From a virus, in the IMG/VR virus record IMGVR_UViG_3300037847_001933, positions 1 to 31,739 of that record: a stretch of DNA of 31,739 nt; one strand, 5' to 3'. How positions within the stretch are numbered: position 1 is the stretch's first letter; every line of letters starts with the position of its first letter. The notes beneath the pieces are model-generated. The model had not been told where the DNA came from. It did not search any database and was given only the letters and a program-made list of their open reading frames with translations. A program made the translations under genes and the position numbers. This document shows positions 1 to 30,713 of the stretch, in pieces.

Positions 1-3000
1 ATTGACCCTGCCGTATCTCTGAAAACACTTAAATTTCTACTTGTTGGTGCAGTTCCTACCCCAAGTTTATCTGTTATTGTTGCACCACCTTGAAGAGTAA
101 GACTACCATTAGCGTCAATACTTGCTTTTTCTGTTCCGTTTGCTCTAAATTTATAAGTCAAAGAATCTGGACTATTGAAATTAACGGCACCACCGTCCAT
201 ACCGATAACAAGTTTTTGATTATTAGCACTTCTTGTAATAATTAAACCACCATCGAAACCTGAATCATCTTGTTGTTTGATAGTAACATTTCCTCTTGCT
301 TCAAGACCTGCTAATAATAAATCTGCATATTCATATCCTGTTCCACTTGTATTGACTGTTGTTGTAGGTTGTTCTGTTGTGCCTTTAAATAATTTAAATC
401 TATTTGTATCAGAAGCATCAGAAAATAACCCTAAATATCTTGCTGAACCATCATTATACTTTCCATATATACCTATATCGAGAGAGTTAGCTGAATTATC
501 TTTAGCCATCTCTATTAATGAATCTTCAACTGCTATTGTTGATGTATTCACAGTTGTAGTTGTACCATTGACTGTTAAATCTTGTGCTATTGTTAAGCTA
601 CCTGCTAAACTAACATCTTGCGAACTATCAATAGATATTGCATTTGTTCCTGCACTTCTAATATATACATTGTCTGCTCCACTATCTATTGAGCCAATAT
701 ATATACTATCTGAATTATCAATACCTATTAATCTAATACTTCCACCTCCTGTCGTTTTACTTTCATAATATTGATTATTATTTGTGATTGTATCGCCTGT
801 TAATACTATATTCCCTGTAACACTAATTCCTGTACTTGTAGTTTCAAATTTTACAGCATCATCGTAATAGATTGAAACTTCGCCATCTTTAGCACAACTT
901 ATATATTGTTCATTTCCAGTTGCAGAACGTAAATAAATAGCTGTGTCGGAACGTAACATTAAATAACCACTATTATTTTCTATGAATGAATTACTACTAT
1001 CGTGATAGATTTCTAAATCTTGACTTGTTCCAAGTTTAATTTTATCATTATCATTAAGGTTTAAACCACCGTCTGCTGTTATTGCTCCTGTAACATCTAA
1101 AGAAGATGAAAAAGTTGAAGCACCATCCGTAGTTATCCCTCCTGTTACAGCGATTCCTGTATTGGTAGTTGCTAGCTTCGTTACATTATTATATCTAAAA
1201 CTACAAGCACCATCAACAGTAAATTGAGCATAATATTCATCTTGAGCAGCATTTCTAAAATATATATTATCACTTCCTTCAATAAATAAATTACCTGTTC
1301 CTTGTTCTGTAATAAAAGAATTACTACCATCGTGATATATTCTTAAATCTTGAGAACTACCTAACTGAAGTATTGCACTATCAACTAAATTTATATGTTT
1401 ACTAACTAATATTCTTTCATTTGTTCCATCAAGTTTAAAATATTCTGTTGTTCCACCTGAACCATCATCACATTTAAAAATCATATCCTTATCATCTGTT
1501 CTTTGGTCAAAAATTAAATCCCCACCACTATTTTGCAGTCGTGTATCAGTTCCATCGTGATAAAAATATAAATCAGAAGCATCTCCTAAAGTTATTCGGC
1601 AGTTGTCTGGATATTTAGCATATAAATTGCCACCTGACGCTTGACTTCCGTCAAAATGTAAATATGTAGAAACGCCACCAGAACCATCGTCTGTTTGAAA
1701 AATAATATCTTTGTCATCTGAGTTGTTTTGTATATATAAATGCCCAGTATAATTTTGTAAATAAGAATCTGAAGTATTATGATGAATTTTAAAATCTGAG
1801 CCATCACCCCATATAGCGTATTTTGTATCTGCTATTGTTATATTATCACTAAACGAAGCACCTGTAAATACCGAACTTCCTGTTGCTGTTAAACCTCCTG
1901 TAACACTTACCCCTGTACTTGTTGTTTCAAACTTTTTAGACCCAGCATAATAAATAGCAACTTCAGCACCTGTATTAGCTAACAGATAAACTTGTGAGCC
2001 ATCTGCTCTTTGTAATTGAAAATTACTAGCTCTGATTAATAAATTTCCTGTTCCTGTTTCATCAATATAACTATTAGAGCCATCGTGGTACATTTCTAAA
2101 TCTCCTGCATTTCCAATTTGTATTTTAACATTGTCAAATAAAAATAAAGATTTAAAAAATTCATTTTTTTCTGAACTACCATCGATTTTAAAATATTCAG
2201 TAGTACCACCTGAGCCATCGTCTGTTTTGAAAATTATATCTCTATCATCTACTGTTTGTTCTAAAACTAAATCGCCTGTTGTATTATATATAATCGAATT
2301 AGATGTATGATAAATCTGTAAATCATTACCATCACCAAATACTGCTTTACTTGTATCTGTAAATGTGATATCATCATTTGCACTAACTGAAATATTACTT
2401 CCACCAGTTGTATTTCCACCTGATAATACTTCTGCTAAAGTATCGTGCCCTTCAATAGCAGTATCAACATAAGCAGTGGTAGCTATTTTAGTTGAATTAT
2501 CTCCGTCTGTTTGAGTTGTAGCAGTTGAGTTATTAGGTAAAACTACACCACCACTTGCAAAAGATAATGAAAGACCTTGACCACTTGCAGTTGTTACAAT
2601 TTGATTTGACGTTCCTGTAACTGCAAATACTTGACTATCTAAATCTACTGAACCTGTACCACTATCGCCACTAAAATCTAAATCTTCTAAAGTTATTCTT
2701 GAAGCTACATAATCAACTATGGCAGCACTTGTAGGAATTGTTGTGTCATTGTCATTATTTGCGATTCCGTCAGCTTCATCTACAAATTTTGTGATTGTTA
2801 TATTTTCTCCTGTGTCTTTTAGTGAGCCGAACTCTAATATTCCAGTTGCTTTAAAATCTCCTGCGTTGTTTAGATAAACTCCAGTTTGGTTTCCAGAGCC
2901 GTCTGTTAGTTCTCGTAATGTAGCACTGATAACCGCATTATCAATAGTCTTGATAAGACCAACATACGTATTTGAAATTTTTGTATTAAATAAACTTGCC

Positions 3001-3002
3001 AT
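1..3002 (-). CDS. Tail fibre / receptor-binding-type structural protein, C-terminus cut by window edge
   Basis: One frame is open from ATG at 3002 to base 1 with no stop, so at least 1000 residues are encoded and the C-terminus lies outside the window. The first ~200 residues resemble the tail-proximal part of phage fibres. The body holds six copies of a fibre motif of the form DLxIYHDGSNSxI, followed by a GTGxLxI-like strand, starting near residues 227, 301, 403, 477, 552 and 662. Some are linked by a KFETTSTGxxVTG-like module. Near residue 808 is the motif LTVNGTTTTVNTSTIAVED, common in fibres of marine phages. Such repeats normally fold as trimeric beta-rich shafts outside the virion. It is the last visible gene of the late operon, 78 nt after the DUF6712-like gene. 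The fibre role is inferred from the repeats and position. Receptor specificity cannot be read from the sequence. Confidence 0.82.
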   Translation of the reverse strand, partial: MASLFNTKISNTYVGLIKTIDNAVISATLRELTDGSGNQTGVYLNNAGDFKATGILEFGSLKDTGENITITKFVDEADGIANNDNDTTIPTSAAIVDYVASRITLEDLDFSGDSGTGSVDLDSQVFAVTGTSNQIVTTASGQGLSLSFASGGVVLPNNSTATTQTDGDNSTKIATTAYVDTAIEGHDTLAEVLSGGNTTGGSNISVSANDDITFTDTSKAVFGDGNDLQIYHTSNSIIYNTTGDLVLEQTVDDRDIIFKTDDGSGGTTEYFKIDGSSEKNEFFKSLFLFDNVKIQIGNAGDLEMYHDGSNSYIDETGTGNLLIRASNFQLQRADGSQVYLLANTGAEVAIYYAGSKKFETTSTGVSVTGGLTATGSSVFTGASFSDNITIADTKYAIWGDGSDFKIHHNTSDSYLQNYTGHLYIQNNSDDKDIIFQTDDGSGGVSTYLHFDGSQASGGNLYAKYPDNCRITLGDASDLYFYHDGTDTRLQNSGGDLIFDQRTDDKDMIFKCDDGSGGTTEYFKLDGTNERILVSKHINLVDSAILQLGSSQDLRIYHDGSNSFITEQGTGNLFIEGSDNIYFRNAAQDEYYAQFTVDGACSFRYNNVTKLATTNTGIAVTGGITTDGASTFSSSLDVTGAITADGGLNLNDNDKIKLGTSQDLEIYHDSSNSFIENNSGYLMLRSDTAIYLRSATGNEQYISCAKDGEVSIYYDDAVKFETTSTGISVTGNIVLTGDTITNNNQYYESKTTGGGSIRLIGIDNSDSIYIGSIDSGADNVYIRSAGTNAISIDSSQDVSLAGSLTIAQDLTVNGTTTTVNTSTIAVEDSLIEMAKDNSANSLDIGIYGKYNDGSARYLGLFSDASDTNRFKLFKGTTEQPTTTVNTSGTGYEYADLLLAGLEARGNVTIKQQDDSGFDGGLIITRSANNQKLVIGMDGGAVNFNSPDSLTYKFRANGTEKASIDANGSLTLQGGATITDKLGVGTAPTSRNLSVFRDTAGS

Positions 3003-18189: not shown

Positions 18190-18309
18190 ATGACAAACAA
18201 ACAAAGAGATTCATTCAGAGTTGATGTTATTAAAAATGGTGAATGTTCAAGCCACTATTTTAAAACTCTAAAAGAATCCGAAGAATTTGTCAAACAAATT
18301 ACTGAATAG
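18190..18309 (+). CDS. Only plus-strand gene of the window, 39 aa (44 aa from upstream ATG)
   Basis: The frame runs from ATG 18175 or ATG 18190 to TAG 18309. The -7 element ends at 18170, so a transcript start near 18176 would leave out the first ATG. The second has AGGA 2 nt before it, so I prefer 18190. The product reads MTNKQRDSFRVDVIKNGECS and ends with LKESEEFVKQITE. It is small, charged and soluble, with no recognised family. It runs convergently into the last 11 nt of terL, so its transcript could extend antisense to terL. The promoter quality and codon use support expression. Confidence 0.6.
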   Translation: MTNKQRDSFRVDVIKNGECSSHYFKTLKESEEFVKQITE

Positions 18310-19462
18310 TATATTTACCGAAGTTCGGTCTTGAAAGAATACTATAAGTTGCGTAACGGCAGGGGTCGATAATATGATTATCTTTATCAATAGGAATATT
18401 CGTTAGCCGACCAGATTTATCTTCTGTCCATTTGTAGTTTCTAAATTCTCTAATCGCATTATCACTATCTTTGAGTATATGTATTTTATATCTTTTTAAT
18501 AAATCAATACCTGCGTTTATTGAATCACGACCTTTCATACTTGGAAATATATTATGCCCCATAGTCCTAAGTTCTGTTATCAATCTTGGTTCGGCACTAT
18601 CTGCATAGATAGCACTTTTTCCTAAATCTTGTTTCAATAGGAAATTATGTATATCTCTTGTTGTCATTTGTGTTCTATACAAATGCTCTTTTATATATAA
18701 TTTATGCTCGTGAGTGTGAACAGATACCAAAGTTGTTGGGTCATTTGTGTAACCGAAATCCATTCCGTATGCTATTAAGGTTGCTTCCTCTGGAATTTTA
18801 TTACATTCAACATAATTGAAAATCGTGCTGCGACTTGCTGCTCTTTCTCCCAATCCATAGATTTGCCAATACTGCTCATCAGTTTCTTTTAACCTTTCTA
18901 TCTCTAACTTTATAGCTTCTTCAATAAATGGATTATCTAAATAAGTTGTTTTGAAAAAGTCGCAATCTTCTCTAGTTATAACTTTGTCATATATCCAATG
19001 ATATTCATCTGAAGGATTAAAGTCAATTATAATTTTTTCTTGAGTTCTAAATACAAGTTGTTGCCAATCTTCAAAATATAATTCGTTTGCTTCGTTCACA
19101 AATAAAAGGTTTCTTTTCCTACCTCTAATTTTTTGTGGCATATCTAAACTGATGAACTCAACTAAGTTGCCGAACAAATGATATTCTGAATTTGATTTAT
19201 TATGAAAGGTTTCGCTGTATATATTATTATTTTTTAATATATCAAAGAAATCTCTAAGTACTGTAGCTCTTAAACTTGGGAAACTTTTTCTACATATTGT
19301 TATAATCTTCTTATCATTCTTTGTGCAGAACTCGAATATTATCCAAAGAAGTATATTAAAAGTTTTTCCAGAACGAGTTCCACCCTGCTCAACTATAATT
19401 TTCTTATCGCTTTTTACAAGATGTTTGTAAACGACATTAGTCTGTATCTTCTGTTTTATCAA
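18299..19462 (-). CDS. terL: Terminase large subunit
   Basis: The 387-residue DNA-packaging motor has Walker A GGTRSGKT (27-34), Walker B LLFVNE (119-124, catalytic Glu124) and the coupling segment IIIDFNPSDEYHW (144-156). The RNase H-like nuclease domain carries acidic residues in YGMDFGYTNDP (Asp235), IYADSAEP (Asp288) and HIIDPCRYA (Asp366). It translocates DNA into the procapsid through the portal and cuts concatemers. No ATG lies before Walker A; the frame starts with TTG at 19462, overlapping terS by 26 nt. The last 11 nt overlap the convergent plus-strand micro-gene. The identity is secure; the start codon is the only doubt. Confidence 0.92.
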   Translation of the reverse strand: MIKQKIQTNVVYKHLVKSDKKIIVEQGGTRSGKTFNILLWIIFEFCTKNDKKIITICRKSFPSLRATVLRDFFDILKNNNIYSETFHNKSNSEYHLFGNLVEFISLDMPQKIRGRKRNLLFVNEANELYFEDWQQLVFRTQEKIIIDFNPSDEYHWIYDKVITREDCDFFKTTYLDNPFIEEAIKLEIERLKETDEQYWQIYGLGERAASRSTIFNYVECNKIPEEATLIAYGMDFGYTNDPTTLVSVHTHEHKLYIKEHLYRTQMTTRDIHNFLLKQDLGKSAIYADSAEPRLITELRTMGHNIFPSMKGRDSINAGIDLLKRYKIHILKDSDNAIREFRNYKWTEDKSGRLTNIPIDKDNHIIDPCRYATYSILSRPNFGKYTIQ

Positions 19463-19796
19463 TTATTTCAATTTGAAAGTTATTAGGCATACCATCTGCA
19501 CCAGTTATCTCTTGTCTTTCAACATAACCTCTGCTCTTTCCTTTTGTTTTCAAATAGAACATAGTTGAACTTGGAATGCCATCTCCTATCTGTTTATGTA
19601 GTTGGCTTTCTGCAAAATCAAGAGCAATGTTTTCAATGTCCTTAACTTTTCTAGCAAACTCAATATCTTCATTAAGCCATTTATAGAATGTGCTTCTAGG
19701 TATGTTTGCTTTCTTACAAGCAACTGTAACTATACCTAAACTTTGTTCAAGTGCTTTTAAAATACTCTCCTTTTTTATGTGTCTACTTTTGTCCAT
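19437..19796 (-). CDS. terS: Terminase small subunit
   Basis: ATG at 19796 gives a 119-residue protein; an upstream TTG at 19808 is less likely. The N-terminus has a helix-turn-helix (KESILKALEQSLGIVTVACK then ANIPRSTFYKWLN) for DNA recognition, followed by an oligomerisation helix (IENIALDFAESQLHKQI) and a C-terminal tail of the TKGKSRGYVERQE type. It recognises the packaging site and recruits TerL. It sits directly before terL and 1 nt after the dioxygenase stop, so base modification and packaging share one transcript. Confidence 0.82.
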   Translation of the reverse strand: MDKSRHIKKESILKALEQSLGIVTVACKKANIPRSTFYKWLNEDIEFARKVKDIENIALDFAESQLHKQIGDGIPSSTMFYLKTKGKSRGYVERQEITGADGMPNNFQIEIIDKTEDTD

Positions 19797-19797
19797 A

Positions 19798-20598
19798 TTA
19801 TTTATCAAATCCTGCGAGTGGATAGAAGATTAAACTATTTCTATATCCCTCCTCATTATGTTTTATTATTTTCGTTACTCCGTGAATATTAAACCAAGCT
19901 GGATATACAAGTAAACTATTATCTGCCTGTTCAAATGTGTGATTAAAGTCAGGAACGCACAACGCACCACCCTCTGTGCTTTTTCTTTTGGTTAATATTG
20001 CATTCACTGTGTTTTTTAAATTACCTCTATCTTGATGGAAAGGAGCAGCGATATTAAAATTAGATATACTACTTGTGAATAAATTACCGAATCTATATTT
20101 AGGTAATGTCGTTTCTTCTATTAATTTCTTTTGAGATTTATATTGTTCTGGCATATATTTTTCTATGAGTTTCTCACATTCTAAACAAGAAAGTAGCATA
20201 GCTTTTATAAATGTCTTTGCTTTTGCGTTTGTGTGAACTGCTGATACAGAATTGTAGGGTCTCCTTAAATGTGGCTTTGCTAATACGGCACCGAGTATCG
20301 TACTCATCTGTACTGTATTCCTAGCTTTCGCTTCTTTCCTACTTATCCCTAACTTTCTTTGCATCTCATATACATCAGACCTTTCAAGTAATGACTTCGG
20401 TACATTCTTACTTAAGAACTCTTTATTAGCTATTGTGATATATTGTTTTAATTTGTCAGGTAGGTCTGTCAGGTAGAAGCCGATTATTTCCCCATCAAAT
20501 TCTAACAAACAACTTTCAGTAATAGTTGGTGGAACAAATTCGCACCTCTTACCTATTTTGACATCGTGTTTATGATATTTTAATTTTAATGTTTTCAT
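19798..20598 (-). CDS. TET/JBP-family 2-oxoglutarate/Fe(II) dioxygenase, 266 aa
   Basis: The C-terminal half carries the double-stranded beta-helix signature. FHQDRGN gives iron ligands His188 and Asp190, EGGALCVPD lies at 209-217, and FNIHGVTK gives the third ligand His239. YRNSLIFYP gives Arg253, which would bind 2-oxoglutarate. The HxDRxN, GG-L--P and HGVT spacing is that of the TET/JBP group, which hydroxylates 5-methylcytosine or thymine in DNA. The N-terminal ~120 residues are family-specific. Its ATG overlaps the glycosyltransferase stop by 4 nt, and it is followed at once by terS/terL. It would oxidise phage bases as a handle for the glycosyltransferase. The substrate base cannot be told from sequence, and no DNA methyltransferase is visible here. 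Confidence 0.75.
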   Translation of the reverse strand: MKTLKLKYHKHDVKIGKRCEFVPPTITESCLLEFDGEIIGFYLTDLPDKLKQYITIANKEFLSKNVPKSLLERSDVYEMQRKLGISRKEAKARNTVQMSTILGAVLAKPHLRRPYNSVSAVHTNAKAKTFIKAMLLSCLECEKLIEKYMPEQYKSQKKLIEETTLPKYRFGNLFTSSISNFNIAAPFHQDRGNLKNTVNAILTKRKSTEGGALCVPDFNHTFEQADNSLLVYPAWFNIHGVTKIIKHNEEGYRNSLIFYPLAGFDK

Positions 20599-21341
20599 AT
20601 TGCTCTACTATTTAACCTCAATTCTAAATATTTACTTTTCCTATGAGGGTTTATACTTATCAAGTTTGGATATTTCTTACATAGATATAACGCAGAATTG
20701 TTTTGTTCTTTTGTTGTCCTACTATCTACCATTCCGCCATCGCCTTTGTAATAAGTTGTATTCAAACTAAACATATTCAATCTAATAACTTTTTTAAACT
20801 TAATAAAATATTTAATCGTTCTTTCGTAATCTTCTTTTTCATTTACATTAATTTCTAAATTTTTATCTTTGTCTATAATAATTCCAAAGAAACCACCATT
20901 GATAAATTTTAGATTAGTTGATATTTTATTATCCATAAAGAAATGATTATTGGTTGGTGTGATTCCAAATATTTTTGTTCTATGTTTTAAACATTCATTG
21001 AAACCTATCTTAATTAACTTATCAATCTCAACAAATTTTTCTGTACTCTTGCCTTTTTTCTTTGTTAGATAATTTATATCATCATCTATTTGAATTATAA
21101 AATCACCATCATTATAATAATTATTTATATACTTTCTTTGTTCTTTAAGGGTTATGACACCAACGATAATATTTATTCCAAAACTTTCTAGATATTTATA
21201 ATCTTTATATTCTTTTTTATTAGCGACAAATACATCAATGAGTTTTGGGTTTATGTTACAATCATTAATAAGATAATTTATACTTTTATCTTTAACGACT
21301 TTTGACCTTTTGTAACTTGGGATAGCTATTCTATAGTTCAT
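20595..21341 (-). CDS. TET/JBP-associated-type glycosyltransferase (TAGT-like), 248 aa
   Basis: The 248-residue protein has a GT-A nucleotide-sugar transferase outline. It has YRIAIPSYKRSKVV at the N-terminus, FIIQIDDDINYL with the metal-binding Asp triad at 86-88, then KFINGGFFGIIIDK, an acidic EKEDYERTIKYFIK and a C-terminal YYKGDGGMVDSR. This order (PSYKR, DDD, G-G, ED-x-R, GG) is that described for TAGT enzymes encoded beside TET/JBP dioxygenases in phages (Iyer and colleagues). It would attach a sugar to the hydroxylated base made by the next gene. It overlaps that gene by 4 nt and the ParB-like gene by 11 nt. Sugar and acceptor are unknown. Confidence 0.7.
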   Translation of the reverse strand: MNYRIAIPSYKRSKVVKDKSINYLINDCNINPKLIDVFVANKKEYKDYKYLESFGINIIVGVITLKEQRKYINNYYNDGDFIIQIDDDINYLTKKKGKSTEKFVEIDKLIKIGFNECLKHRTKIFGITPTNNHFFMDNKISTNLKFINGGFFGIIIDKDKNLEINVNEKEDYERTIKYFIKFKKVIRLNMFSLNTTYYKGDGGMVDSRTTKEQNNSALYLCKKYPNLISINPHRKSKYLELRLNSRAI

Positions 21342-21897
21342 ATTTTTGCATAGCTTTATAAAACAACTCTTGCAAATTTACTCCCTTATTTTTTAAATCA
21401 TCATATAATTTTTTGATTGGCTCAAAATCTTTTGCAGGATATTCAAGTATGATTGATTTTTTTGTTTGCTCATACATTGTATTTATTTCTTCTTCAACAT
21501 CAATGTCATCTAAAACAGAGTAATCAATTTCTTGTTCTGGTTGCCAAACATCTATACCCCAATCATTAAGTTTTTGATTATCCCAAATGTTCGCAAGTAT
21601 ATCCCAATCCCAATCACCGAAGCTGGCATTATCTTTGATTATAAATTCCTCTTGCTTTTTTTTACTTATCTTAACTTTCATTGTATGAACTTCTTTCAGA
21701 CCTGCATCAACGGCAGCTTTGTATCTCATATTTCCACCGAGTATATAATTATCTTCATTAATAACTATCGGTCTAAACTCTAACATCTCTGGAAAGTCTT
21801 TAATGCTCTGAACTAATTTCTTAAACTTTGCGTCTTTGATTAATCTTGGATTCTTAGGGTTAATTTTTATTTCTCCTATTTTTAATTTTTTAATCAT
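21331..21897 (-). CDS. ParB-like nuclease/partition domain protein, 188 aa
   Basis: The N-terminal ~100 residues are a ParB domain: KIGEIKINPKNPRLIKD, then FKKLVQSIKDFPEMLEFRPI and the box LGGNMRYKAAVDAG (53-66), followed by IIKDNASFGDWDWDIL. The C-terminal part is acidic and helical. This compact ParB protein is common just before terminase genes in Bacteroidota phages and has been listed among neighbours of TET/JBP-TAGT cassettes. ParB folds can hydrolyse CTP or ATP or cut DNA; which applies is unknown. It may target the modification machinery to DNA or act in packaging. It overlaps both neighbours. Confidence 0.75.
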   Translation of the reverse strand: MIKKLKIGEIKINPKNPRLIKDAKFKKLVQSIKDFPEMLEFRPIVINEDNYILGGNMRYKAAVDAGLKEVHTMKVKISKKKQEEFIIKDNASFGDWDWDILANIWDNQKLNDWGIDVWQPEQEIDYSVLDDIDVEEEINTMYEQTKKSIILEYPAKDFEPIKKLYDDLKNKGVNLQELFYKAMQKYEL

Positions 21898-22175
21898 ATT
21901 CCTTTTGTTTGTTTATACATATATTCTAAAACTTGCAGTTCGGAATCAGTTGCTTCGTATCTTATAACTAAATGGTCTTTCTGCGTTTCTGTTTTGTTTT
22001 GCCAATTATTAATTTCATTTACAATATCATTTAGTTTTAATTTTGTGAAATAAATCTTTGCGTCTAATTTATTTAACGACCTTTCTTTTAAATCAATTGG
22101 TAATAGTCTTTTCGTATTTACTTTTCCATTCCCAACTTTTAACAAAGGTACGTAATCTTTCATAGGTTTCGTCAT
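21894..22175 (-). CDS. Hypothetical protein of the modification cassette, 93 aa
   Basis: The frame ends overlapping the ParB-like ATG by 4 nt and starts 83 nt inside the preceding DnaA-like gene in another frame. An internal ATG at 22163 would shorten the overlap to 71 nt. The product starts MTKPMKDYVPLLKVGNGKVN and ends with a helical IRYEATDSELQVLEYMYKQ. There is no recognised domain, membrane segment or cysteine motif. Its place directly before the ParB/TAGT/TET-JBP run makes it a candidate accessory protein, but only by position. Confidence 0.5.
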   Translation of the reverse strand: MTKPMKDYVPLLKVGNGKVNTKRLLPIDLKERSLNKLDAKIYFTKLKLNDIVNEINNWQNKTETQKDHLVIRYEATDSELQVLEYMYKQTKGI

Positions 22176-22581
22176 ACTTGTTTTTTGGTATTTTCTGTAA
22201 TAATTGAATTAATGGTGTGTCAAGTTTTTCCTCTAAAGTTTTTATCTGACTTTCTAAAAAATGTATCCTATCTATTTCATCATAAGTTAAATCACTTTTC
22301 CAAGAAAACATTCTCTCATATTCTGTGAGTTTTTTATTATGTTTTTTATATACTGAATACATTTTGTATGCGTTGATTGCAGTTGCGTGTGTCATATGCT
22401 TTCCGTTATTGACAAAGAACTTTGCAATATTAGTCCAACGCATTCCGAGTTTTTGTCTTAACAAATAACAAAGTAACATTCTTATTTCAATGACTTCTTG
22501 TTTTCTTGTGTTTTCAAAAACATCAATTTTAGTAATCTGTTTTAATTTTTTTGCTACATCTATCGGTTTCAAATCTTTCAT
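22093..22581 (-). CDS. DnaA domain IV-like DNA-binding protein, 162 aa
   Basis: The N-terminal ~80 residues match the C-terminal DNA-binding domain of DnaA: RKQEVIEIRMLLCYLLRQKL, then GMRWTNIAKFF, NGKHMTHATAINAYK (59-73). This corresponds to the R-K--V--R---MYL and helix-turn-helix DHTTVIHA signature of DnaA. The rest is a coiled coil without an AAA+ ATPase domain. It may bind a phage origin or compete with host DnaA for it. It overlaps the exonuclease stop by 4 nt. The DNA-binding call is fair; a replication role is inferred from neighbours. Confidence 0.6.
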   Translation of the reverse strand: MKDLKPIDVAKKLKQITKIDVFENTRKQEVIEIRMLLCYLLRQKLGMRWTNIAKFFVNNGKHMTHATAINAYKMYSVYKKHNKKLTEYERMFSWKSDLTYDEIDRIHFLESQIKTLEEKLDTPLIQLLQKIPKNKYDETYERLRTFVKSWEWKSKYEKTITN

Positions 22582-23279
22582 CTAATTCTTAATTTTAATA
22601 AGTTATAACATTGTATATACTTTTCTCTAGCTTTGCTCTTGTATTTTTCTTGGAACAATTTAAACAATTTTTTGGTATATTGATATTTAGTATTGCATCC
22701 TTTGAAATATTTTTTAGCAAATGCTTTACCTTTTCCTTTAAAATAATTTACATTATCTGCAGTATCTCCTTCAATCATTTGAGAATAAAAATTAAATAAT
22801 GCAGTTTCTTCTGATATGTCATAAATACATTTATGGTTATAATGATAATTATAAATCAATGCTGGGAATTGTTTGTAGTCTTTGTCAATACTAACTATCA
22901 TAACATTTTCACGACCTACTTGTTCTTGTAGGTTATACCAATATCTTGCAACTAAATCATCAGTTTCAATTCCGTAACCATATACACTATCGTAATGGTC
23001 TTTTACGTATTGGTGCATCTCAAACAACAAAGGAGGTAGTTCTGCTTTTTTTCTGTTCGCTTTATATGATGAACTAATTTTTTTTCTAAAGTTTCCACGG
23101 CAACCATTGAATGTGATAATTTGTTTAATGTTAAATTCTTCTTCTAATCTATTTACTATCTCCATATATTGCTCATCAAACTTTGCGATTGAATCTTCTA
23201 TTTCTGTAAAGTATTTTTCTTCTGTTCCAGAATAGCAACTTGCGAATACTAAACTATCTGCGTCTACTAGTAATATCAT
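22578..23279 (-). CDS. 5'-3' exonuclease / flap nuclease (FEN/PIN fold), 233 aa
   Basis: The 233-residue protein has the metal-site residues of phage 5' nucleases in order. They are LLVDADSLVF (Asp6, Asp8), a helical arch region KISSSYKANRKKAELP (68-82), GIETDDLVARYW (105-114, Asp107/Asp108), VSIDKDYKQFP (Asp132, Asp134) and EGDTADNV (170-177, helix-hairpin-helix entry). This is the T4 RNase H / T5 flap nuclease type, which removes RNA primers and flaps during replication. It is somewhat short and ends just after the hairpin region. Its ATG overlaps the stop of a small membrane protein by 4 nt. Confidence 0.82.
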   Translation of the reverse strand: MILLVDADSLVFASCYSGTEEKYFTEIEDSIAKFDEQYMEIVNRLEEEFNIKQIITFNGCRGNFRKKISSSYKANRKKAELPPLLFEMHQYVKDHYDSVYGYGIETDDLVARYWYNLQEQVGRENVMIVSIDKDYKQFPALIYNYHYNHKCIYDISEETALFNFYSQMIEGDTADNVNYFKGKGKAFAKKYFKGCNTKYQYTKKLFKLFQEKYKSKAREKYIQCYNLLKLRIR

Positions 23280-29270: not shown

Positions 29271-29667
29271 TCTTTTTAACTTTTTCATAAGACCTGCCAC
29301 CGAAATATGCACCAATCATTGTTATAAGAACAAGTTGCAAAAGTGACTTCCATTCGTCATCAACTTCAAATTTGATTGAACCTGAATCTATAAAAATCAT
29401 TATTAATGTTAAACAAATTGTAATTAATAAAACTAGAGGTCTTACATTTTTTGACAAGAAACTTGAATGTGCTTGAGAATCTAATGCCCATCTTTCAGTT
29501 ACATTTTTTTGCATATCTGCTTCTGCATTTATCCAAATTTGTTCCATCTCTTTTTGAAATTGTGCTTTCTCATCTTTTGTATGCACAAATTTATCTACAA
29601 TACCAGATATTTTTTCTGCTACTGAACCACCTGCTTTTCCGAATATTTTAGCTAAAATTTTACTCAT
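29263..29667 (-). CDS. Holin-like membrane protein, 134 aa
   Basis: The 134-residue protein has an amphipathic N-terminal helix (KILAKIFGKAGGSVAEKISG), a coiled-coil part (AQFQKEMEQIWINAEADMQK) and LSKNVRPLVLLITICLTLIM with the first transmembrane helix (about 76-94). A second helix, LLQLVLITMIGAYFGGR, precedes a basic tail. This is the layout of 3TM-type phage holins (GTA/T4-like HOL families), which open the inner membrane for the endolysin. It stands in the lysis module with an M15 peptidase. Overlap with the gene upstream is 8 nt. Holin function is inferred. Confidence 0.68.
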   Translation of the reverse strand: MSKILAKIFGKAGGSVAEKISGIVDKFVHTKDEKAQFQKEMEQIWINAEADMQKNVTERWALDSQAHSSFLSKNVRPLVLLITICLTLIMIFIDSGSIKFEVDDEWKSLLQLVLITMIGAYFGGRSYEKVKKNG

Positions 29668-29977
29668 TTTTTAAATCATAAATTAAATCTTGAATATATT
29701 TTCTATCTATATCTAATTTAAAATCTAATCCTGCTTGAAAAGTTCTAACAATTTTGCCATCTTTTTCTATTAATATAACTGGAACAGATTTTATTTGACC
29801 TTTCAATTTTTCGTTTTGGTCCTCTAACCAACCGAAATCATATTTTGCACTTCTGATATCTTCTAAATATAAAGTATTTTTTTGATTCCATTTGGCATTT
29901 ATTTGTACTACCCTTATGTTTTGACTATAAGTTGTATAGCTAAAAAATAAAAATAGAATTAAAATTAATTTTTTCAT
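29660..29977 (-). CDS. Exported thioredoxin-like protein without CxxC, 105 aa
   Basis: The 105-residue product starts with a signal peptide (MKKLILILFLFFSYTTYSQN, cleavage likely near residue 18-19). It then has a thioredoxin-fold outline: VVQINAKWNQKN, YDFGWLEDQNEKL, SVPVILIEKDGKIVRTF with the cis-Pro region, and an end helix. The position where CxxC would sit reads NAKWNQKN, so a redox function is improbable. It would be in the periplasm and could aid lysis or envelope modification. It is coupled to both neighbours. Confidence 0.6.
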   Translation of the reverse strand: MKKLILILFLFFSYTTYSQNIRVVQINAKWNQKNTLYLEDIRSAKYDFGWLEDQNEKLKGQIKSVPVILIEKDGKIVRTFQAGLDFKLDIDRKYIQDLIYDLKNE

Positions 29978-30276
29978 CTTTTATAAACTTTATCTTCCAA
30001 CTCCTTGATTCTCTCTTTGTTATCTAATATATCTTCTTTTAATCCGTCTGTTGATTTTTCTATTTGTATAATTGTGCTTCTAACCAATTCATCTTTCAAC
30101 TGAAACTCCATTTTTTTTACAAACTCATCTCCAGATACATTTTCTATTTTATAATTTAAATCATCAATCTTAGATTGTAATGTAAAATAAGTTGATGCAA
30201 CTGATAATGCTCCAGCTACTATGATTGCGATAGTTTTCAAATCTAATTTTACTTGCGTGTTCTCGTTTAATTCCAT
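29974..30276 (-). CDS. TM plus coiled-coil protein of the lysis module, 100 aa
   Basis: The 100-residue protein has a short cytoplasmic N-terminus, one transmembrane helix at about 15-33 (TIAIIVAGALSVASTYFTL) and a long coiled coil to the C-terminus (KIDDLNYKIENVSGDEF..., DNKERIKELEDKVYK). This is like inner-membrane spanin or holin-accessory proteins. No outer-membrane lipoprotein partner was found in the window. It overlaps the next gene's ATG by 4 nt. Confidence 0.55.
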   Translation of the reverse strand: MELNENTQVKLDLKTIAIIVAGALSVASTYFTLQSKIDDLNYKIENVSGDEFVKKMEFQLKDELVRSTIIQIEKSTDGLKEDILDNKERIKELEDKVYKR

Positions 30277-30713
30277 TATTTTTTGTCAATTTGTTTTAAT
30301 TTGCTAATCGCCCAATTTATTCCTGCACTTCCTCCCCAAGCATCCCACATTATACCACCGCATCCTTCCGTATATGGAACGTCTTTATTTTGTTGATGTC
30401 TTTTAAAAGAAGCCATTCTTGCGATTGTGTCTCTTGTTAAACTTTCTCTATTGGCTAACTGCCTAGCTCTCGTCCAACCAACAGTCGTGCCACATTTACT
30501 TCCATTTTTTTCTTTATAAGCTATTGCTCTTTTTGCATTATTTGTAGCCGATTGAGGATAATCACTATAAGATTCAAGTTCTACATTTTTTCTGTAAGTG
30601 TCATAACATATAGCCAATGCTTCATCTCTTTTATGATATTGCATCAACTCTGGAACACATCTTAAAATGTAGTCTCTTTGTTGTTCTCCTTTTTTTACTT
30701 TCGGTATAGGCAT
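30276..30713 (-). CDS. Conserved Bacteroidota phage protein, 145 aa
   Basis: The 145-residue protein starts MPIPKVKKGEQQRDYILRCV, with a DEALAICYDTYR segment. It then has SDYPQSATNNAKRAIAYKEK, VGWTRARQLANRESLTRDTI, ARMASFKRHQQNKDVPYTEG and CGGIMWDAWGGSAGINWAIS. All blocks are strongly conserved in many Bacteroidota phages, sometimes fused to head or protease genes, so it may be a virion-associated protein despite sitting among lysis genes. No catalytic motif was assigned. It follows a 53-aa gene directly (TAGATG). Confidence 0.65.
   Translation of the reverse strand: MPIPKVKKGEQQRDYILRCVPELMQYHKRDEALAICYDTYRKNVELESYSDYPQSATNNAKRAIAYKEKNGSKCGTTVGWTRARQLANRESLTRDTIARMASFKRHQQNKDVPYTEGCGGIMWDAWGGSAGINWAISKLKQIDKK

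Follow-up and report, generated by a model that had tools for sequence, protein, structure and literature searches.

Which base a marine phage might modify with a TET/JBP-type dioxygenase, and what decides how such a modification is finished, are the questions raised by a compact operon in the IMG/VR record IMGVR_UViG_3300037847_001933. This record of a marine phage was analysed as one stretch of 31,739 nt, referred to here as the window. On its minus strand, the genes for a ParB-fold protein, a glycosyltransferase and the dioxygenase are transcribed in this order and are followed by those for the small and the large terminase subunits (TerS and TerL), with overlaps of 4-26 bases between successive genes from ParB through TerL. 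Positions, strand and gene calls agree with the initial annotation of this DNA, which had placed a three-gene cassette at 19798-21897 and described it as fused to the terminase operon. The cassette indeed adjoins and overlaps terS and terL, but no fused protein is present. TerS (19437..19808, minus strand) is recognised by phrog_4044 (6.7e-7) and its gene shares 11 bases with the TET gene, and TerL (18299..19462, minus strand) matches PF17288 (5e-23) and PF04466 (1.9e-20).

Predicted products of the three-gene cassette

Profile, structural and residue comparisons support the prediction that the 266-aa dioxygenase (19798..20598, minus strand) is a true TET/JBP enzyme dependent on Fe(II) and 2-oxoglutarate. 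The protein matches the TET_JBP profile PF12851 of Pfam (E 2.3e-9, 37.1 bits against a cut-off of 34.9), and its AlphaFold2 model, built from 42 sequences (pLDDT 93), retrieved exclusively TET2, CcTet, NgTET1 and CMD1 at ranks 1-26 of a Foldseek search against the PDB (E 2e-12 to 7e-8), with AlkB-type enzymes next in the ranking at 1e-6. In VIA-align, TET2 reached a Z of 19.3 over 240 residues, compared with 14.8 for FTO, the best non-TET structure, and a family profile run against the PDB sequences recovered TET2 (E 0.015). TET folds thus outrank all other folds, and the Foldseek and VIA-align rankings rule out as first choice a protein or small-molecule hydroxylase, the placement that the initial annotation had named as fatal to its reading. 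In the profile alignment with TET2, H188 and D190 fall on the HxD motif and H239 and R253 on the distal His and Arg, which identifies HxD...H as the iron site and R253 as the 2-oxoglutarate Arg, just as had been proposed from the letters alone. These four residues, together with N193 and Y259, are invariant across 111 family members; N193 and Y259 occupy the positions of TET2 N1387 and Y1902, and L261 that of H1904. The alignment with the TET2 core covers the full length of the protein, and neither the J-DNA-binding domain of JBP1 nor any further Pfam domain was found in it. TET genes of this kind are called "queuine tRNA-ribosyltransferase" in phrog_6059 and in several GenBank records (RefSeq NC_020847, NC_011044 and many others); Pfam does not bear this label out, the model has a TET fold, and a misannotation seems likely. 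A TET_JBP search of bacterial genomes, about 790 sampled from two phyla, gave no match beyond the starting genomes.

The gene that precedes TET (20595..21341, minus strand) encodes a 248-aa protein that had been described as a TAGT-like, GT-A-like glycosyltransferase with the motif DDD at 86-88. Its comparison with the TAGT profile gave a divided answer, as the window protein scores 15.3 bits against PF20691, below the Pfam cut-off of 27.5, whereas it matches phrog_25200 (2.4e-27) and phrog_842 (1.8e-11) in PHROGs. Its assignment to the TAGTs rests on the phrog_842 match, on the GT-A model described below and on two relatives that pass the PF20691 cut-off, i.e., the protein occupying the same place in the contig L010 (60.4 bits; 37% identical to the window protein) and gp3 of mycobacteriophage Acadian (131 bits), whose gene follows the TET gene. 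The structure model (pLDDT 93.5) matches the GT-A enzymes TarS, POMGnT1 and LH3, while a sequence search against the PDB returned chance matches only. Among 37 relatives, D87 and D171 never vary and D88 and G203 hardly vary, which together with the GT-A model upholds the DDD motif. These comparisons support the prediction of a DNA-type, TAGT-like GT-A glycosyltransferase.

The first gene of the operon (21331..21897, minus strand) encodes a stand-alone ParB-fold protein of 188 aa. The ParB domain that had been noticed in it is borne out by a match to ParB_N (PF02195; 28.6 bits, with a Pfam cut-off of 26.3) and by matches to phrog_620 and phrog_498, the latter reflecting its resemblance to the ParB portion of ParB-methyltransferase proteins from phages. 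Pfam gives ParB_N only, without the helix-turn-helix DNA-binding domain of partition ParB proteins. The protein contains a Box-II-like motif, GGNMR, of which R58 is kept in 95% of 98 members, and in tested ParB-fold proteins the Arg of this motif is needed for NTP binding (PMC12704722). Other DNA-modification enzymes of phages are likewise found together with ParB-type proteins (PMC12783734, PMC12704722). As a working idea, the ParB-fold protein might help to load the modifying enzymes on DNA. Two tandem ParB-type genes precede TET in L062 (3058-4196) and L077 (8859-10011), two contigs that contain ADDT/PLP/kinase genes and lack a glycosyltransferase.

A fixed ParB-TET chassis with an exchange slot

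Two scans of IMG/VR returned more than 140 loci, some of them from the same contigs. ParB lies upstream of TET in all 81 non-redundant loci with enough upstream sequence, TerL is found within 3.5 kb downstream in 45 of the 51 loci with enough downstream sequence, and the gene between ParB and TET overlaps the latter by exactly 4 bases in 75 of about 90 loci. Because the arrangement was found again in dozens of contigs, with TET identities ranging from 95% down to 44%, it is not the product of chance. The Prochlorococcus phages MED4-184, MED4-117 and P-HS2 (TET 44% identical) share with the window the order ParB, slot gene, TET, small gene and TerL, although in MED4-184 the slot is filled by an FkbM-type methyltransferase (PF05050, 4e-11) instead of a glycosyltransferase.

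Comparable blocks occur in phages of actinobacteria. The Mycobacterium phages Acadian, Indlovu and Donny carry ParB, TET and TAGT as genes 1-3 in one operon beside the terminase, as in the window, but their TETs are far diverged (the actinophage TETs aligned here are 22-27% identical), and in their block TAGT is located after TET and not between ParB and TET. In Acadian and Indlovu a PIG-L deacetylase (PF02585) joins ParB, TET and TAGT just before the terminase, with a P-loop kinase added in Indlovu. A PIG-L deacetylase gene also directly follows TAGT in three further actinobacterial phage loci (L164, 2470-3048; L163, 2438-3025; L162, 7765-8355), and its position beside the glycosyltransferase hints that in these phages the sugar may be N-acetylated and then deacetylated. 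Linkage to the terminase is common and not obligatory, since the Arthrobacter phages Klevey and Altadena have ParB-TET-TAGT without a terminase gene in the neighbourhood examined. Rhodococcus phage Tonitrus and Mycobacterium phage Prince also keep ParB and TET in the terminase neighbourhood, but there the hydroxyl would be processed by ADDT (aGPT-PPlase2) and a kinase rather than by a glycosyltransferase; the ParB-TET-aGPT-kinase set of Tonitrus has been called thymidine hypermodification (PMC11955845). Cultivated phages of Mycobacterium smegmatis include both the glycosyltransferase version (Acadian and Indlovu) and the transferase/kinase version (Prince).

The genes found between ParB and TET form several groups with less than 50% identity. 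TAGT is accompanied by a GT32-type gene in L003 (PF04488, 4.8e-16), L018, L020, L022, L027 and L035-L037, an FkbM methyltransferase is present in L061 as in MED4-184, and a P-loop kinase stands alone in L090, L096, L119 and L128. The slot proteins of 301-309 aa in L113, L122 and L154 and the product of an extra 330-aa gene in L126 received no Pfam or PHROGs assignment and appear GT-B-like by eye only. That these genes are exchanged is visible among the closest relatives: in 23 of the 48 contig pairs with TETs at least 95% identical, the slot proteins share less than 40% identity, while ParB reaches a median of 93%. The DNA of L011 matches that of L012 at about 96.5% identity until ParB ends, and the match resumes at this level where TET begins; the glycosyltransferases enclosed by these flanks are unrelated, and L010 and L011 show the same pattern of near-identical flanks around unrelated glycosyltransferases. 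The window itself differs from its nearest relative, L003 (TET 95% identical), by having no GT32 gene. In blastn, the alignment of the two runs without a gap in the window at about 21338-21344 but is broken in L003 by about 0.7 kb, which corresponds to the GT32 gene; these break points mark the ParB/glycosyltransferase junction (21331..21344, minus strand) as the upstream edge of the slot. On the TET tree, which was built by a quick method, has several long branches and was used only for the scatter of finisher types, these types require 18 changes, compared with 19-22 (mean 21.5) for shuffled labels, and are thus only loosely tied to the descent of TET. On a fixed ParB-TET chassis beside the terminase, the gene between the two is an exchange slot.

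By exchanging the slot gene, such phages may be able to alter the chemical disguise of their DNA quickly. In a broader scenario, to which we give even chances, a thymine-oxidising chassis would stay fixed while its slot is exchanged gene by gene under pressure from modification-sensing defences, so that the genome would wear a fast-evolving "chemical coat" and close relatives would come to carry different DNA chemistries, i.e., sugars, disaccharides, phosphate or, in the Prochlorococcus phages, methylated hydroxymethyluracil. To our knowledge, this last base has not been reported in DNA.

Proposed modification and its probable substrate

We consider it likely that the cassette directs the post-replicative hypermodification of thymine by a ParB-TET chassis with an exchangeable finisher. 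The TET-type dioxygenase would act on phage DNA after replication and hydroxylate thymine at its 5-methyl group to give 5-hydroxymethyluracil (5hmU), and the TAGT-type GT-A enzyme would then move a sugar from a nucleotide sugar to the hydroxyl, producing a base-J-like glycosyl-5hmU. The ParB-fold protein may load or place these enzymes on the DNA, possibly in an NTP-dependent manner. The occupant of the slot would decide how the hydroxymethyl group is finished, with one sugar in the window phage, probably two where GT32 joins in, a phosphate where the slot holds a kinase and perhaps a methyl group in the case of the FkbM enzyme; in other relatives the hydroxyl would be processed by a kinase and an amino-acid:DNA transferase. 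The modified base would hide the phage genome from restriction and similar defences. Judged by the position of the genes, its synthesis might take place shortly before packaging, as the initial annotation had suggested. The glycosylated, hypermodified base proposed in the initial annotation remains the simplest reading of TET, a DNA-type glycosyltransferase and ParB in one operon.

With regard to the substrate, two options had been left standing, plain thymine or a base that depends on a gene located elsewhere. The company in which the TET genes are found and the lack of C5-methyltransferases favour the first; the substrate of the cassette is probably thymine. A search for C5-cytosine methyltransferase (PF00145) detected none in 37 related records and none in 10 phage genomes (the cassette is present in eight of these), while the positive controls were detected in both cases, and the C5-methyltransferase motif had no match in any cassette locus scanned. 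The thymidylate-synthase-like 5hmdUMP synthase (PF00303), which had been noted as missing from the window, gave no match in any of 18 records, the window included, with the M6 positive control being detected. Since the tested genomes, Tonitrus and Prince among them, lack such a synthase, no candidate other than TET is left in them as a source of 5hmU. The window cassette has no kinase and no aGPT-PPlase/ADDT among its neighbouring genes. In L062, L064, L077 and L158, TETs of this family are located beside ADDT/aGPT-PPlase2 (PF18724), a PLP enzyme and/or a P-loop kinase, and in the cultivated phage Prince TET lies beside ADDT and a kinase (PF18751, 1.4e-72). The ADDT-like protein of L062 has homologues in hundreds of phages, including Kuttervirus-type phages, where one is annotated as aGPT-Pplase2. 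The slot kinases found in place of the glycosyltransferase share 45-53% identity with the kinase of L062 that adjoins ADDT, and the slot kinase of L090 is paired with a TET 78% identical to that of the window. A tblastn search with the L062 kinase gave no match in the phage collection, so its link to the actinophage kinases rests on profiles and PF18751.

The base-binding residues point in the same direction. The base of 5-methylcytosine (5mC) is contacted in TET2 and NgTET1 by a His at N3 and an Asn or Asp at N4, with a Tyr or Phe stacked on it (PMC7854593). According to the alignment with TET2, the N3-contacting His1904 is replaced by Leu or Ile in 111 of 111 members; this loss is suggestive of thymine, while the kept Asn193 could serve either base. 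It is the combination of absent C5-methyltransferases, ADDT and kinase partners, homologous slot kinases and Leu/Ile at the His position that favours thymine.

TET enzymes are known as 5-methylcytosine oxidisers. An alternative, which we regard as unlikely, is a cytosine pathway in which TET oxidises 5mC made by the host or by an unseen phage C5-methyltransferase and TAGT glycosylates the resulting 5hmC. The window record is a fragment, cut within a repetitive frame of at least 1000 aa (3-3002, minus strand; probably a tail or receptor-binding protein) that runs off its left end, so that a methyltransferase could be encoded beyond the fragment, or 5mC could come from the host. Two features of the window proteins speak against the proposed pathway, as Asn193 corresponds to Asn1387, the TET2 residue that binds N4 of 5mC, and the glycosyltransferase scores below the TAGT cut-off; in addition, the PHROG to which this glycosyltransferase belongs takes its name from a glucosyl-HMC enzyme. 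Activity on 5mC is what tests of phage TETs have shown to date (Burke et al., 2021, as summarised in PMC11404850; PMC12730594), and a search of the literature found no biochemistry for the window-type TET subfamily. However, the cytosine pathway is difficult to reconcile with the missing PF00145 and methyltransferase motif in the related records, cultivated phages and loci searched, with near relatives that have kinase/ADDT partners of the 5hmU type and with the absence of the N3-binding His in all members, and the phage would need to rely on host methylation.

We think it improbable that ParB steers TET and the glycosyltransferase to a few sites, e.g., the packaging start, so that the mark would license packaging instead of masking the genome. 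Such a role would fit the constant presence of ParB and the closeness of TerL in the loci compared, as well as the recurrence of the ParB-TET-terminase neighbourhood in mycobacteriophages with a TET only about 22-27% identical. However, Klevey and Altadena show no terminase gene in the neighbourhood examined, the fast exchange of finishers resembles an arms race and not a packaging signal, and ParB-type proteins are associated with other phage DNA-modification enzymes as well. It is very improbable that a protein, RNA or small molecule is the target of the dioxygenase and a surface glycan that of the glycosyltransferase: the queuine label of TET relatives and the TarS/TarP wall-acid enzymes among the glycosyltransferase fold matches could be read in this way, but the label lacks Pfam support, the fold groups with DNA-acting TETs clearly above AlkB, FTO and others, and the partner genes encode DNA-base enzymes.

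Relation to known systems and surroundings of the cassette

Cassettes combining TET and TAGT in phages are not a new idea, having reportedly been predicted by Iyer and colleagues. The ParB-TET-ADDT-kinase set has been published as well (PMC11955845). Compared with the literature examined, what is new is the proposed assignment of thymine to a large marine TET family, the constant pairing of ParB with TET as a chassis next to the terminase and the gene-by-gene exchange of the finisher, which includes an FkbM methyltransferase and a lone kinase. The proposed thymine pathway resembles that of trypanosome base J, which involves JBP1/2 and a glucosyltransferase (PMC10276184), in that thymine would be hydroxylated within DNA and then glycosylated, but the window TET lacks the J-DNA-binding domain and its sugar enzyme is of the TAGT-type GT-A class. 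The phage system consisting of a C5-methyltransferase, TET and a glycosyltransferase (Burke et al., 2021), as it is summarised in PMC11404850 and PMC12730594, is likewise initiated by TET after replication and completed by glycosylation; in contrast to this system, no C5-methyltransferase was found in the window or in complete relatives. Thymidine hypermodification of the M6/ViI type differs in its use of a TS-like synthase, which was not detected in the window, and of a kinase and aGPT-PPlase/ADDT, which are absent from the surroundings of the cassette. If the thymine pathway is correct, a large and widespread phage family that oxidises plain thymine would be the phage counterpart of trypanosome base J and would add new tools for installing modified bases in DNA that has already been replicated. 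The exchange slot would offer a direct view of how phages diversify their genome chemistry against restriction.

Some further features of the window surround the cassette. Upstream of ParB, a gene at 22093-22581 (minus strand) encodes a 162-aa protein resembling the C-terminal DNA-binding domain of DnaA (PF08299, 1.4e-6, just under the cut-off), which is kept in this position in close relatives of the window. It is preceded by a gene for a stand-alone 5'-3' exonuclease domain (22578-23279, minus strand; PF02739, 6.2e-12), also kept upstream of the cassette. A TET 83% identical to that of the window is encoded on one MAG contig labelled Flavobacteriaceae, a label to be read with caution because the binning of phage contigs is uncertain. 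Finally, a block of about 640 bases at 29660-30300 of the window (minus strand) is located at another place in the nearest relative (14465-15101 of L003), which indicates that a small gene pair has moved.
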